The notes beneath the pieces were generated by a model, which was not told the DNA's origin, searched no databases, and saw only the letters and a list, made by a program, of their open reading frames with translations. A stretch of DNA of 64,000 bases from Candidatus Aminicenantota bacterium (lineage in GTDB: Bacteria > Acidobacteriota > Aminicenantia > Aminicenantales > Saccharicenantaceae): positions 1-64,000 of the forward strand of contig JAPKZD010000025.1 of assembly GCA_026393975.1 (NCBI GenBank). The letters are read 5' to 3'. This document shows positions 50,849 through 63,645 of the stretch, one piece after another. The first letter of the stretch is position 1. Each line of letters opens with the position of its first letter. The translations under genes were made by a program, and so were the position numbers.

Positions 50849-51919
50849 TTATGTTTCCATCGCTGTTTCTTCAACGCGGAAGTATCTCTTTTTGAAATAT
50901 AGCGCCACGTTCACCAGCCCGATAAGCACCGGCACTTCCACGAGCGGCCCGATGACCGCGGCGAACGCCACGCCCGAGTTAATGCCGAAGACGGCCACTG
51001 CGACGGCGATGGCCAGTTCGAAATTGTTGCTGGCCGCCGTAAAAGAGAGCGTCGCGGTGATCGGATACCCGGCCCCGATCCTCTTGCTCATGAAGAAGCT
51101 CACAAGAAACATCACCACGAAATAGATGAGGAGCGGAATAGCGATCCGGACAACATCGAGGGGTATCTTGACAATATACTCGCCCTTCAGGCTGAACATG
51201 ACAATAATGGTGAAAAGGAGTGCGATCAGCGTGATCGGGCTGATTCTTGGGATGAATTTCGTCTGGTACCATTCTTTGCCTTTGATCTTGATGAGGGTGA
51301 AGCGGGTGATCATCCCGGCCAGGAACGGAATGCCCAGGTAAATAAAAACGCTTTCCGCAATCTGGCCGATAGTGATGTTTACGGTACTACCTTTGAGGCC
51401 GAAGAGCGGCGGCAGGACGCTTATGAAAAACCAAGCGTAGACGCTGAAAAAGAGCACTTGAAATATGCTGTTGAAAGCCACCAGCCCCGCGGCGTATTCC
51501 GTATCACCCTTGGCTAGATCGTTCCAGACGATAACCATAGCGATACAGCGCGCCAGCCCGATCATGATCAAACCGACCATGTATTCGGGATACCCTCTGA
51601 GAAAGGTGATGGCCAGAAAAAACATCAATACGGGGCCCACGATCCAGTTCTGTACCAAGGAAAGGCCGAGCACCCTCCAATTTTTAAAGACATCGCCCAG
51701 TTCCTCATATTTAACTTTTGCCAGGGGCGGGTACATCATCAAGATAAGCCCGATGGCGATGGGGATGTTGGTGGTTCCCACGCTGAACTTAGCATTAAAC
51801 GAGGCCACTGCGCCGGGAATCAAATAACCGATAAGCACTCCCAGGGCCATAGCGGTAAAAATCCAGAGCGTGAGATAGCGATCAAGAAATGACAGTTTTT
51901 TTGATACGGATTCAGTCAT
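50849..51919 (-). CDS. arsB: ACR3-family arsenite efflux permease
   Basis: '[23 protein letters not shown]', '[44 protein letters not shown]'. Confidence 0.95.
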
Positions 51920-51960
51920 ATGAAATCTCTTTGACGATCATAATCGCTAACGACCTTCCT

Positions 51961-58593: not shown

Positions 58594-58968
58594 ATGAAAG
58601 AGATTATCAAGGCTTTTAAGGCTCTTTCCGATCCTACCCGCCTGAGGATTTTCCTCCTCCTCCTGGAAAAGGACCTCTGCGTTTGTGAGTTGACCTATGT
58701 CTTGGATATGTCGCAATCACGGGTTTCGCACCAGCTCAGGCTCCTAAGAGACGCGGACCTGGTGGAGGATAAGAGGGAGGGAAGGTGGATCATTTACACG
58801 ATCCCTCAGCGCACTAGAGAAGACCTCGAGCCTTTGCTTCGGCGGCTCTCCGGCCCCAATCCGGCTGAATCGAAGCTCCTTCCCCGAGATATCGATCGTC
58901 TCGATGTGTGTCTCCGGGAAAATCTCCGTAAGGGCCGCAAGGCGGAAGCGCATCAATCCTCGGTTTGA
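58594..58968 (+). CDS. arsR: ArsR-family regulator
   Basis: 'LSDPTRLRIFLLLLEKDLCVCELTYVLDMSQSRVSHQLRLLRDADLVEDKREGRWIIYTIP'. Confidence 0.94.
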   Translation: MKEIIKAFKALSDPTRLRIFLLLLEKDLCVCELTYVLDMSQSRVSHQLRLLRDADLVEDKREGRWIIYTIPQRTREDLEPLLRRLSGPNPAESKLLPRDIDRLDVCLRENLRKGRKAEAHQSSV

Positions 58969-59011: not shown

Positions 59012-59076
59012 ATGGACATCATAATATTGGGCCCGGGTTGCCCAGGGTGTTGAAAGCCTTGAAAGTGGGCGTATGA
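59012..59076 (+). pseudogene. Truncated CPxC mini-thioredoxin relic (or very short peptide)
   Basis: ATG..: MDIIILGPGCPGC* with SD-like ggggaga; -1 frame continues LKALKVGV* ending on the ATGATG of the radical SAM gene. Confidence 0.6.
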
Positions 59077-60398
59077 TGGGCGAAGGCGGTCGGGTCTATA
59101 GCGAAAAGGGTGAGATTGACGCGGTTCTCCGCCGGAGGGATCCCGACGAGTCTCGCAAAAAAACGTACCGGGTCGCGGTCGGGAAGGACGGTTGTCTGTC
59201 GATACCTCCCGAACTGGCCGGAGAGCTCGGCCTCACTCCGGATGTCCGGCTCGACTTCGTCTCCGACCACGGCCGCATCGAGATCCTGCCCAACATCCAC
59301 AGCCTGCGACGCCTCTATATCGAGCCCACCTCGCGTTGCAACCTCTCCTGCCGGACCTGCATTCGCAATACGTGGGAAGAACCGATGGGCGATATGGACA
59401 TGGGCGTCTTCGACCGGCTGGCCGGTCAACTCTCGCGCTTCCCCCATCTCGAGACGGTCATGTTCGGCGGCTTTGGCGAGCCGACGGCCCATCCCCGCAT
59501 CCTCGACATGGTCCGCGCCGTCAAGGCTTCGGGCCTGCGCGCCGAGATGACGACCAACGCGACGCTCCTCGACGACGCCCTGATCGACGGCCTGCTCCGC
59601 GAGCGTCTCGACACCCTCTGGATATCTCTCGACGGGACGACCGAAGAGAGCTTCGAATCGATCCGCGAGGGCGCGAGCTTCCCCCTCGTCCTCGAGAACG
59701 TCGAACGGCTCGGCCGGCGAAACGGCCGGGACGGCCACCGGATCGACATCGGCATCGCCTTCGTCGTCATGAAGACGAACCTCCACGACGTCAAGCACTT
59801 GGACCGCCTGGCCCGGTCCGTCGGGGCCCGACGCATCCTGGTAAGCCACGTCCTGCCGTACAGTGAGGCGATGGAAAAAGAAATGCTCTGCCTCCAGACG
59901 CTGACCCTCGAGACGTTCACCTTCGCCCCGGGCAAAACCGAGCTCAGCCTGCCCCGCATCGACGTCAACAACACGACCAAGGACACGATCTTTAGCCTGT
60001 TCCAGGGATTCGAGAACCTGACCTTCATGGGCAACAGGATCGCCGTCGACTCCCGTCGCTGCCGCTTCGTCCACGATCGCGCGTCCTTCGTCCGCTGGGA
60101 CGGAAGGGTCGGGCCCTGCATGGGGCTCCTCCATTCCCACCGGACCTACCTCTACGGGCTCGAACGGCGGGTCCGGTCTCACGCCTTCGGCGACGTGCGC
60201 GAGGGAGACCTCTTCGAGATCTGGAATTCGAAGGCCTACGTGGACTTCCGGGAGAAGGTCAAAGCCTTCGATTATTCTCCTTGCCACGTCTGCGGCGGGT
60301 GCTCGATGCTCGAGTCGAACGAAGAAGACTGCTATGGGAACACCTTTCCTGCGTGCGGTGGCTGCCTCTGGGCCCAGGGGGTCATCCAATGCCCGTAA
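59073..60398 (+). CDS. Radical SAM protein with AbrB-like N-terminus and Cys-rich SPASM-like C-terminus (resembles tungsten-oxidoreductase maturase type)
   Basis: 'LYIEPTSRCNLSCRTCIRNTWEEPMGDM' CxxxCxxC; C-terminal 'CHVCGGCSMLESNEEDCYGNTFPACGGCLWAQGVIQC'. Confidence 0.88.
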   Translation: MMGEGGRVYSEKGEIDAVLRRRDPDESRKKTYRVAVGKDGCLSIPPELAGELGLTPDVRLDFVSDHGRIEILPNIHSLRRLYIEPTSRCNLSCRTCIRNTWEEPMGDMDMGVFDRLAGQLSRFPHLETVMFGGFGEPTAHPRILDMVRAVKASGLRAEMTTNATLLDDALIDGLLRERLDTLWISLDGTTEESFESIREGASFPLVLENVERLGRRNGRDGHRIDIGIAFVVMKTNLHDVKHLDRLARSVGARRILVSHVLPYSEAMEKEMLCLQTLTLETFTFAPGKTELSLPRIDVNNTTKDTIFSLFQGFENLTFMGNRIAVDSRRCRFVHDRASFVRWDGRVGPCMGLLHSHRTYLYGLERRVRSHAFGDVREGDLFEIWNSKAYVDFREKVKAFDYSPCHVCGGCSMLESNEEDCYGNTFPACGGCLWAQGVIQCP

Positions 60399-60427
60399 GC
60401 CCGCTTATAGTCAACAGGAGGGAAACC

Positions 60428-60859
60428 GTGGAAAAGAAAACGATCCTCTTTATCTGCGTTCACAATTCTGCCCGATCCCAGATCGCCGAGGGCCTGGTCA
60501 ACGCCCTCTACGGAGAGCGGTTCGAGGCTGTGAGCGGCGGGACGATGGCCACGAGGGTCCATCCCGGGGCGATCAAGGCCATGGCCGAGATCGGCATCGA
60601 CATCAGCGGCCATCGCTCGAAGAGCATCGACGAGTTCGAAGGCAGACGGTTCGATTATGTCGTGATGGTCTGCGACGATTCCCAGACGGACTGTCCCTTT
60701 TTTCCCGGCGGTAAGGACTACATCCACCACGCCTTCGACGACCCTGCGGCCTGCACGGGAACGGACGAGGAAGTCCTGACCTGTTTCCGCCGCAGCCGCG
60801 ACGAGATCCACGCCTGGATCAGGGAGGCGTTCATTCAAGGGGAGAAGGAGAAACGATGA
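60428..60859 (+). CDS. arsC: Thioredoxin-type arsenate reductase (LMW-PTP fold)
   Basis: GTG start after aggaggg; 'ILFICVHNSARSQIAEGLVN', 'VMVCDDSQTDCPFFPGGKDYIHHAFDDPA'. Confidence 0.92.
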   Translation: MEKKTILFICVHNSARSQIAEGLVNALYGERFEAVSGGTMATRVHPGAIKAMAEIGIDISGHRSKSIDEFEGRRFDYVVMVCDDSQTDCPFFPGGKDYIHHAFDDPAACTGTDEEVLTCFRRSRDEIHAWIREAFIQGEKEKR

Positions 60860-61305
60860 GCGACGAGATCCTGCAGCTGGCGGTCGATAAATTCCTGTTC
60901 CGCTTTCCCTCCGACGTTCATTACAGCGAGGCCGGGATCTGGGTGAGATTCGAGGGGTCGCGGGCGCGCATCGGGCTTTCCGATTTTACCCAGCAAAGGA
61001 ACGGCGACGTGGCCTTCGCCGAGCCGAAAGAGGTGGGGAATCAGGTCCGGTTGGGGGACGAGGTGGCCGTCGTCGAGACGATCAAAGTCAACCTCAGTAT
61101 CCCCTCGCCCGTGGCAGGCAAGGTTATCGAAGTCAACAACGACCTCTTGACCGCTCCCGAGCTCGTCAACCAGGACCCCTACGGGAAGGGCTGGCTGGCC
61201 GTCCTCGAAGTCGAGGACGGCGAAGCGGCGCGCGGAGCTTTGAAGACGGCTGCCGGCTACCTGGCACTGGCCAAGGTCCAGGCGGAAGCAGAGATCCTGC
61301 GATGA
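60856..61305 (+). CDS. GcvH-like lipoyl-domain protein
   Basis: 'ARIGLSDFTQQRNGDVAFAEPKEVGNQVRLGDEVAVVETIKVNLSIPSPVAGKVIEVN'; lipoyl Lys retained in ETIKV. Confidence 0.92.
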   Translation: MSDEILQLAVDKFLFRFPSDVHYSEAGIWVRFEGSRARIGLSDFTQQRNGDVAFAEPKEVGNQVRLGDEVAVVETIKVNLSIPSPVAGKVIEVNNDLLTAPELVNQDPYGKGWLAVLEVEDGEAARGALKTAAGYLALAKVQAEAEILR

Positions 61306-61721
61306 GCGGAACGCGGCCCAAGATCCCCGTCGTCCCCTGCAGCGGGATCGGGAAAAGCCTCGGAGCCGCGGCCCGGGAAGCGGCCTTTGTCCTTGCCGAG
61401 GACCTCCGTCCCGACAAAACGAAAATCGTCGCCCTTTCCCTCCTCGTTTTGGGGGACGAAGAAGCACGGCGCGAAGTCGCGGGACACGAGGCCGTCGCCA
61501 TCGACGGCTGTAAGCTCGAGTGCGCCGCTAAAGGGCTAGCTTGTTCGGGCGCCTCAAAGATCCACAAAGTCGCCGTCTTCGATGTCGTCCGGCGCCATCG
61601 CGGCCTCAAACCCGAGGGGGTCTGCGACCTCAACGAGGACGGTCTGAGGCTGGCCCGGGCGACGGCCGATGAGGCCGCGAAGATCGTCGATAACGTCGAC
61701 GCGGAGGGCGGCCATGCCTGA
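61302..61721 (+). CDS. DGC-domain putative zinc-binding protein (1)
   Basis: 'VPCSGIGKSLG', 'AIDGCKLECA'; overlaps gcvH-like stop. Confidence 0.82.
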   Translation: MSGTRPKIPVVPCSGIGKSLGAAAREAAFVLAEDLRPDKTKIVALSLLVLGDEEARREVAGHEAVAIDGCKLECAAKGLACSGASKIHKVAVFDVVRRHRGLKPEGVCDLNEDGLRLARATADEAAKIVDNVDAEGGHA

Positions 61722-62406
61722 CCTGCCGAGAAAGAAAATCGGTCTGATCGCCTGCTCCGGCGAAGAGCTCGCCGAGGGCACGGTGACCCGAAGGGCCGTC
61801 CGGAAAGTGCTCGAGACTCTCCGGCCCGACGACACCGTAACGCTGTGCCTGCCGCTGTTCCTTGCGGGAGGCGAGGGAGAACGGGCCTTCGCCCGCCACT
61901 ATCCGACCATCGCCGTCGACGGGTGCGATAAACGGTGCGCCGCCCTGGCGACGGAGAAGTATAGCGCCAAGCCGGCCGCGAGCATCGTCGTGAACGAGAC
62001 TGCCGACGCCGCCGAATGCCATGATATCGGCACCGCCCGCCATTTGAACGAGGCGGGGATGCAGTTCGCCGATTCCGTTGCGCGGCTCATCGCCGAGGAA
62101 ACAGACAGGCTCCTAAAAAAGCCACGACGAAAAACGTCCGGATTAGCGGCCGATTTCGGCGGTTGCAGCTGTAGCTCCGGCCTTCCCTCGGGAACGGTGC
62201 GCATCCTCGGTCGGGCGACGCGAATCGCCGGGCTTCCTCTCATTCTCGCGCAATTCAGGGACCAGGAGAGAGGGCCGGACCAAAAAACGGCCGCGGCTCT
62301 TCTGGAGGCCGCGAAGATTTATAACGAGGTTCCGGATAGTCAGCAGCAAGCCTGGAAGGAAGCGCTGTTCCTGGAATACGCCCAGTTTCTCAAGGAGAAA
62401 GACTGA
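61714..62406 (+). CDS. DGC-domain putative zinc-binding protein (2) with C-terminal CSCSSG extension
   Basis: 'GLIACSGEELAEGTVTRRA', 'VDGCDKRCAA', C-terminal 'GGCSCSSGLPSG'. Confidence 0.82.
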   Translation: MPDLPRKKIGLIACSGEELAEGTVTRRAVRKVLETLRPDDTVTLCLPLFLAGGEGERAFARHYPTIAVDGCDKRCAALATEKYSAKPAASIVVNETADAAECHDIGTARHLNEAGMQFADSVARLIAEETDRLLKKPRRKTSGLAADFGGCSCSSGLPSGTVRILGRATRIAGLPLILAQFRDQERGPDQKTAAALLEAAKIYNEVPDSQQQAWKEALFLEYAQFLKEKD

Positions 62407-62873
62407 TGGCACGAACGGAGATCTATACAGCCTCAGTCGCCTGGACAGGTGGCCACCGGGGACACCTGAAGCTCGGCAACGGGCCCGAGATGGACTTTTC
62501 CGCGCCGCCGTCTTCGCATGGCGAAGCGGGCGTCCTGACTCCTGAAGATGCGTTCGTCGGCGCCGTCAACACGTGCGTCATGCTGATGTTCATATGGGCG
62601 GCCGAGCGCTTCCGGCTGGACCTTGTCTCTTATGAGTGCCGGGCGGAGGGAACGAAGCTTATCGAGCTCGATAGAACCGAGATCTTCACCCGGGTTGTCC
62701 TGAAACCTCGGATCACCGTGCGCGTTGGCAACGAGCTCCCCGAGGCCGTTGAGAAGCGGGTTCGCCGCTCGCTCGTATCTGCGCAAAAGTTCAGTCTTGT
62801 CGCCAACTCCGTCAAGAGCGAGGTTGCTATCGAACCGGAGATCTTTTTAGAAACCCACCCTGGCGTGAAATGA
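62406..62873 (+). CDS. OsmC-family protein
   Basis: 'APPSSHGEAGVLTPEDAFVGAVNTCVMLMFIWAAERFRLDLVSYECRAEG'. Confidence 0.85.
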   Translation: MARTEIYTASVAWTGGHRGHLKLGNGPEMDFSAPPSSHGEAGVLTPEDAFVGAVNTCVMLMFIWAAERFRLDLVSYECRAEGTKLIELDRTEIFTRVVLKPRITVRVGNELPEAVEKRVRRSLVSAQKFSLVANSVKSEVAIEPEIFLETHPGVK

Positions 62874-62885
62874 TGAGGTCATAAG

Positions 62886-63128
62886 ATGGAAATCAAGGTC
62901 CTGGGCCCGGGCTGCCCGAAGTGTGGAGAGGTCGAAAAACGCGTGAAGTTCGCGCTCGCCGAACTTAAAGTCGCCGCCGATGTCGAGAAGGTTACCGACA
63001 TCAAGACGATGATGTCCTACGGCATCCTGGCGACTCCCGGCTTGGTCATCAACGGCAAAATCAAATGCGCAGGCCGTATCCCGCGTCCCGAGGAGATCAA
63101 TGCCTGGATCCAGGAGGCCGCCGCCTGA
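62886..63128 (+). CDS. Thioredoxin-fold redox-active disulfide protein (CPKC)
   Basis: 'MEIKVLGPGCPKCGEVEKRVKFALAELKVAADVEKVTDIKTMMSYGILATPGLVINGKI'. Confidence 0.92.
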   Translation: MEIKVLGPGCPKCGEVEKRVKFALAELKVAADVEKVTDIKTMMSYGILATPGLVINGKIKCAGRIPRPEEINAWIQEAAA

Positions 63129-63162: not shown

Positions 63163-63645
63163 ATGGCTTTTGCTGCGGTGATCTGGGGCGTTGCGGGTGT
63201 AAGCCTTATTCTATCCTGGGCAAAAAGCCGGGAAAAGACGCGGGAAGCCCTCCGCTTTTTCTGGCGGGCATTTCTGTCCCTGGCTCCGTCCATCGTCGCA
63301 ATTATCTGGACGATCGGTTTTATCCTAACATTCCTGCCCTCAGGGTTCGTATTGAATACAATCGGCCGGAACGCGGGAATCATGGGAGTCGTCATAGCCG
63401 CCGCATTCGGCTCTATCTTCCTCATCCCGGCCTTCATCGCCTTCCCCCTGGCCGCGTCCTTTCTCAGGCAGGGGGCGGATGTCCGGGCCATCGCCGCGTT
63501 CGTCACTACTCTGGTCATGGTCGGCGTGCTCACGGCTCCCCTCGAAGTGAAGTTCTTCGGCAAGAGATTCACCCTCTGGAGGAACACCCTCAGCTTCGTC
63601 ATGGCCTTGGTCATCGCCTTCGTCATGGGGGAGGTCCTGAGATGA
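63163..63645 (+). CDS. Half-size permease (DUF318/ArsP-like, first half)
   Basis: 4-5 TM helices; overlaps next half by ATGA. Confidence 0.75.
   Translation: MAFAAVIWGVAGVSLILSWAKSREKTREALRFFWRAFLSLAPSIVAIIWTIGFILTFLPSGFVLNTIGRNAGIMGVVIAAAFGSIFLIPAFIAFPLAASFLRQGADVRAIAAFVTTLVMVGVLTAPLEVKFFGKRFTLWRNTLSFVMALVIAFVMGEVLR

Follow-up and report, generated by a model that had tools for sequence, protein, structure and literature searches.

A GcvH-like lipoyl protein in a conserved arsenic cassette of bacteria and archaea suggests an undescribed use of lipoic acid in arsenic handling

Why should a relative of the glycine-cleavage H-protein be encoded within an arsenic operon? Dihydrolipoyl groups are classical targets of arsenite and lipoyl enzymes are arsenite-sensitive, and few protein roles of lipoic acid have been described, namely in 2-oxoacid dehydrogenases, in glycine cleavage, in sulfur oxidation through LbpA and in the SirTM operon. 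If a lipoyl protein is dedicated to an arsenic cassette, the poison's target would become part of the defence. The gene that raises this question lies in a contig stretch of 64,000 nucleotides (the window) from a Candidatus Aminicenantota bacterium, whose genome assembly of 2.95 Mb in 25 contigs is approximately 95% complete.

The region around the gene is a genuine arsenic island (Table 1). On the plus strand, genes for ArsR, a radical SAM/SPASM protein, ArsC, the GcvH-like protein, two DGC-domain proteins (DGC1 and DGC2) and an OsmC-like protein are followed by those for an ArsE-type thioredoxin, two half-size ArsP_1 permeases, a ferredoxin-like protein, a DsbD/CcdA-type membrane protein and ACR3. 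To the left of this operon, the minus strand carries a second ACR3 gene together with those for ArsR, ArsD and ArsA and for a pair of ArsP-type permeases. The start of the carrier gene overlaps the stop of the ArsC gene by 4 bp (ATGA, 60856-60859), its own stop overlaps the start of DGC1 in the same manner (61302-61305), and further overlaps of 8 bp (DGC1/DGC2) and 1 bp (DGC2/OsmC) occur downstream. The start of DGC2 was set by homology, a longer alternative being offered by the ATG at 61669, and the window ArsC scores 115 bits with arsC_pI258_fam, below the cut-off of 174.3.

Table 1. Features of the arsenic island. Coordinates are window positions unless prefixed by L085.
Feature	Coordinates	Strand	Evidence and remarks
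Second ACR3, with ArsA/ArsD	50852-51938	-	ACR3 match
ArsR/SmtB regulator, first in operon	58594-58968	+	HTH_5 61.9 bits; NF033788 97.0 bits
Radical SAM/SPASM protein, accessory	59073-60398	+	profile matches; in 14/43 loci
ArsC, LMW-phosphatase-type arsenate reductase	60389-60859	+	LMWPc 65.6 bits; start codon uncertain
GcvH-like lipoyl carrier	60856-61305	+	149 aa plus stop; K77 is the lipoyl lysine in Ex2Kx10G
DGC1, DGC-domain protein with CSGIGK...DGC...C	61302-61721	+	Pfam DGC 46.1 bits; orthologs adjoin carrier
DGC2, DGC-domain protein with C-terminal extension	61714-62406	+	Pfam DGC 56.8 bits
OsmC-like protein	62406-62873	+	unvarying C57 and C78; Ser130 at resolving-Cys position of OsmC relatives
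ArsE/MTH895-family thioredoxin-like protein	62886-63128	+	TIGR00412 101.8 bits
Half-size ArsP_1 permease a	63163-63645	+	ArsP_1 match
Second half-size ArsP_1 gene	from 63642, beyond window end (L085:643-1158)	+	ArsP_1 match
ACR3 with lipoyl/DGC cassette	L085:2640-3689	+	ACR3 match

Two ACR3 genes are thus present on opposite strands of one arsenic island, one beside ArsA/ArsD and the other beside the lipoyl/DGC cassette. In the 294-position model, both of the adjacent half-size ArsP_1 genes match approximately the first half; locus L009 has a similar pair, and such pairs possibly represent a split permease of two halves. The radical SAM/SPASM protein scores 305.9 bits against a tungsten-cofactor oxidoreductase maturase family, near but below the cut-off of 380.

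The window carrier matches the Pfam families GCV_H (106.4 bits, E = 1.2e-30, with the match extending to position 117 of 122) and Biotin_lipoyl (29.9 bits), and falls slightly below the NCBIfam cut-offs for GcvH (108.4 versus 115.85 bits for TIGR00527 and 114.9 versus 117 bits for NF002270). The cut-offs of the chlamydial not_gcvH model TIGR03077 (53.6 versus 144.05 bits) and of the GcvH_rel_desulf model NF045810 (47.7 versus 150 bits) were not reached. An earlier note on this DNA had read a retained lipoyl-lysine context in the protein, and this reading holds: the stretch VVETIKVNLSIPSPVAG fits Ex2Kx10G, the residues E74, K77 and G88 are unvarying across 12 aligned orthologs, and the motif is found in all 43 of the GcvH-like relatives that we gathered. 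The window carrier contains no cysteine.

A normal gcvT-gcvH-gcvPA-gcvPB cluster is located on a separate contig of the same genome (C19), so that the carrier is not a sole GcvH beside a scattered glycine cleavage system. The housekeeping GcvH of this cluster is about 34% identical to the window carrier. One LipB/LplA-type enzyme is encoded on contig C5, LipA on C25 and an Lpd above the cut-off on C18, with a second Lpd relative on C23. Because the best gcvP or gcvT match in the window is no better than E = 0.2 and the genome's sole LplA/LipB and LipA matches are on other contigs, the claim that neither glycine-cleavage P/T proteins nor a lipoyl ligase or synthase lie near the gene also stands. 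At least one further GcvH is present in each of 35 examined genomes that carry the paralog, and the lipoyl ligase family was detected in 33 of them. The search for LplA/LipB gave no match in the other two (G021 and G763), which says little, since such an enzyme would be required there too for the canonical GcvH that each of them encodes. In G1226, a genome of the Asgard search, the LplA/LipB catalytic family is matched 18 times.

We constructed a tree of the 43 GcvH-like proteins and 47 canonical GcvH proteins, including those of E. coli and of the window genome itself. Forty of the 43, the window carrier among them, lie on one side of a branch with 99/88 support, apart from all 47 canonical proteins; the inner forks of the tree, which was drawn from an alignment of only 144 columns, are weak. 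The three exceptions, all from the Asgard search, fall with the canonical side. Two of these (L170 and L174) still have DGC neighbours, and the third (L176), which has none, is probably an ordinary GcvH. At the sequence level, an N-terminal DKF-type motif occurs in 35 of the 43 GcvH-like proteins but in none of the 47 canonical ones. The peptide NQDPYGKGW was ruled out as a family signature, because the control loci described below had been retrieved with an overlapping peptide. The window carrier does not cluster with housekeeping GcvH, and of the earlier proposal of a moonlighting lipoyl carrier one half survives: the protein is a carrier paralog outside glycine cleavage, but it looks like a dedicated paralog rather than one that moonlights.

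A scan that covered 85,462 species with one genome apiece found close relatives of the carrier in Aminicenantes, Terriglobia, Anaerolineae, Planctomycetes, Bathyarchaeota and Lokiarchaeota. Whole-genome searches located the paralog in 15 of 396 Acidobacteriota genomes, in 5 of 399 genomes from the phylum of the Anaerolineales locus and in 2 of 395 from that of the planctomycete locus; for the phylum to which the Lokiarchaeota locus belongs the count was 30 of 197, at a looser cut-off that admits some canonical GcvH. A plasmid collection gave 159 matching records, all below 60% identity, and the best matches listed were ordinary GcvH where annotated.

The 43 loci, which derive from Acidobacteriota, Chloroflexota, Planctomycetota and Asgard/Bathyarchaeota, were selected by the GcvH-like sequence alone, and their neighbours within 6 kb were compared with those of 68 loci of ordinary GcvH. 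DGC proteins were found at 42 of the 43 loci, ArsR at 31, OsmC at 26 and ACR3 at 23, and none of these at any of the 68 controls. An ArsE-type thioredoxin neighbours 25 of the GcvH-like genes, compared with a thioredoxin at a single control locus. Conversely, gcvT and gcvP were absent within 6 kb of all 43 but present at 20 and 25 of the controls, respectively. The Fisher p values for these contrasts (about 1e-6 to 1e-29) are descriptive, because the genomes are related. Ferredoxin (15/43), radical SAM (14/43) and ArsC (7/43) genes are also encountered; at these frequencies radical SAM was ruled out as part of the cassette core and ArsC as a fixed partner. At 20 of the 43 loci, some of them incomplete, the surrounding 6 kb showed no ACR3, and the arsenic link therefore rests partly on ArsR, for which arsenic specificity is assumed. 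Since most of the genomes were assembled from metagenomes, and many of them into short contigs, absent neighbours are often absent sequence. These results indicate that the gene, previously called an orphan, has conserved partners, namely two DGC proteins, OsmC, thioredoxin, ArsR and ACR3. The presence of a GcvH relative in a conserved arsenic cassette of both bacteria and archaea suggests an undescribed use of lipoic acid in arsenic handling.

The DGC proteins carry conserved cysteines, three each in DGC1 and in the DGC domain of an archaeal fusion protein and four in DGC2 (C14, C45, C71 and C75, unvarying in the alignment). In the Asgard loci the carrier forms the C-terminal half of this DGC-GcvH fusion frame. 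All seven aligned Asgard fusions match both Pfam domains, and their lipoyl lysine and three DGC cysteines are unvarying. The predicted structure of one member (mean pLDDT 84.7) includes a long C-terminal helix (268-293) and a GcvH half that resembles solved H-proteins (TM 0.9); the relative placement of the two halves is not to be read because of the low pTM (0.55). For the DGC2 model (mean pLDDT 87.1), a Foldseek search of solved structures returned no match at E ≤ 0.001, and its chemistry is thus not readable from structure. With this result, readings of DGC as a PTS-IIB/LMW-phosphatase-like P-loop or an arsenate-reductase fold were dropped. The C-terminal domain of DGC2, which starts CSCGSG in many bacteria (CSCSSG in the window protein), is predicted with high confidence to consist of two strands and three helices, and PDB sequence and structure searches with it gave no significant match.

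Two of the Asgard clusters contain their own lipoate ligase. The order in L167 is ACR3, a CVCTGKCPG-motif protein, ferredoxin, DGC-GcvH, DGC1, DGC2, a small CGC protein, ArsR and LplA, and the L173 cluster holds an LplA gene together with a weaker LplA-like neighbour. The presence of a ligase inside these clusters supports lipoylation of the carrier. In archaeal clusters with ferredoxin, the adjoining protein of about 125 aa carries the motifs CVCTGKCPG and GCAP (L167:4343-4717, L173:4323-4697 and others); it had no match in a Pfam search, and the label HdrA-like was dropped.

The redox partners of the cassette depend on lineage, with ferredoxin and the CVCTGKCPG protein in archaea versus OsmC and thioredoxin in bacteria. 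Ferredoxin is regular only in archaeal loci, and OsmC, restricted to bacterial loci, was not found in the archaeal clusters, which have ferredoxin and the CVCTGKCPG protein instead. Among Acidobacteriota, the OsmC subfamily (matches to E ≤ 1e-64, set off by a gap from the next at 1e-27) accompanies the carrier in 14 of 15 genomes (the exception being G328) and is absent from all 381 genomes that lack the carrier. In addition to its two unvarying cysteines, this subfamily has Ser130 in 18 of 18 sequences, at a position occupied by cysteine in the solved OsmC relatives 2onf and 2d7v.

The cassette carrier shares its fold and the Ex2Kx10G motif with housekeeping GcvH (PF01597, TIGR00527), but differs from it in its separate branch, its DKF motif, its N- and C-terminal extensions, its DGC and ars neighbours in place of gcvT/P, and its fusion to DGC. 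The LbpA proteins of sHdr systems (PMC6067878) are likewise GcvH-like proteins outside glycine cleavage, encoded in a dedicated cluster and sometimes with their own ligase. All but some archaeal LbpA proteins, however, carry a pair of conserved cysteines, one towards each end of the chain (PMC6067878). The 43 cassette carriers show no such conserved pair, and no hdr genes occur among the annotated neighbours. GcvH-L of the SirTM operons (PMC4518038) is also a paralog of GcvH, and its stress-linked operon includes redox partners and, in some lineages, a ligase. Nevertheless, GcvH-L has no C-terminal alpha helix, whereas the modelled Asgard fusion has one and the window carrier retains the corresponding C-terminal region; the window carrier is also much closer to the canonical structure 1onl (90 bits) than to the GcvH-L structure 5a35 (29 bits). 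None of sirtuin, macrodomain, LplA2, OYE or LLM occurs among its scanned neighbours, and neither sirtuin nor macrodomain among those of the two Asgard clusters with LplA. The earlier note had proposed these two systems as analogues, but the carrier appears to belong to neither.

Two further systems bear some resemblance to the cassette. Ohr depends mainly on lipoylated proteins for its regeneration (PMC4486171), and in Trichomonas OsmC works with the H and L proteins (PMC7946386), so that an OsmC-fold protein is paired with a lipoyl carrier in these systems as well, the carrier in Trichomonas being an H-protein. Their known donors, however, are SucB/Lpd or parts of the normal glycine decarboxylase, whereas the cassette has a dedicated paralog, adds DGC proteins and arsenic genes, and carries serine at the resolving-cysteine position of the OsmC-like protein. 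The ArsD/ArsA system likewise relies on a thiol-based protein that is encoded in ars operons alongside ACR3, but the cassette carrier has a predicted lipoyl group instead of cysteine thiols and matches Pfam GCV_H, not ArsD. The open-access literature yielded no account of arsenic operons that encode GcvH or DGC proteins, an absence that is not proof.

The constant core of carrier and DGC, with a redox partner that varies by lineage, favours a lipoyl arm acting on the cysteines of DGC (and OsmC). We tentatively regard the protein as a lipoyl-carrier subunit dedicated to an arsenic-response module with DGC at its centre, a reading that we consider almost as probable as all its alternatives together. 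K77 would be lipoylated by the cell's LipB/LipA or, in some Asgard archaea, by the LplA of the cluster. The swinging arm would then alternate between dithiol and disulfide and serve the unvarying cysteines of the two DGC proteins, with a further DGC domain fused to it in Asgard archaea and the OsmC-like protein as an additional client in bacteria. Ferredoxin in archaea, and thioredoxin/Lpd in bacteria, might supply the electrons with which the module would act on arsenic-thiol species, reducing or processing them, with As(III) leaving through ACR3 under the control of ArsR. Lipoylation of K77 in vivo, the direction of electron flow and arsenic as the substrate are what we infer here. If so, the cassette could represent a previously undescribed form of arsenic processing in bacteria and archaea, in which a lipoyl arm on DGC cysteine proteins gives lipoic acid a new role (arsenic carriage or reduction) and DGC its first function; we advance this broader claim a little more cautiously still. 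Either way, the cassette gives the uncharacterised DGC domain (PF08859) a partner and a testable function.

As(III) carriage comes next after the redox arm. The reduced lipoyl dithiol might bind As(III) and pass it from one DGC cysteine site to another on the way to ACR3, in the manner of ArsD with ArsA. Consistent with this, the carrier gene is linked to those for ArsR and ACR3 and, at some loci, for ArsA/ArsD; an As(III) site could be built from the conserved cysteines, of which DGC1 and the fusion DGC have three and DGC2 has four; and dihydrolipoyl groups are well-established targets of arsenite. Nevertheless, ArsD and ArsA are already encoded in the window, and carriage, which we consider rather unlikely, would leave the ferredoxin, OsmC and thioredoxin partners unexplained. 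If either the redox-arm or the carriage reading holds, K77 should be lipoylated and contact with DGC should depend on the lipoyl group. Alternatively, the carrier might merely donate electrons to the OsmC-like protein, a lipoyl-dependent peroxidase couple that eases oxidative damage during arsenic stress. The near-perfect tracking of carrier and OsmC subfamily in Acidobacteriota and the Ohr and OsmC precedents point this way. It is nonetheless improbable, given that archaeal clusters without OsmC keep the carrier and DGC, that serine is invariant at the resolving-cysteine position and that the DGC proteins would have no part in such a couple.

It is very improbable that the protein is a spare glycine-cleavage H-protein, induced once arsenite poisons the normal lipoyl enzymes: the intact GcvH fold and motif and the arsenite sensitivity of lipoyl enzymes would suit such a role, but the lack of gcvT/P at all 43 loci, the separate branch, the distribution of the DKF-type motif and the fusion to DGC argue against it. 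Equally doubtful is an unlipoylated structural protein that has retained the fold; the two genomes without a detected ligase are compatible with this, whereas the lipoyl motif in 43 of 43 relatives and the ligase genes inside two clusters are not what it would lead one to expect.

Divergent, lower-scoring GCV_H genes were additionally observed as tandem pairs with frames of 227-285 aa (G203:C20:174009-175056, G242:C748:1700-2819 and G242:C884:904-1983), and constitute a further unusual GcvH-like group.
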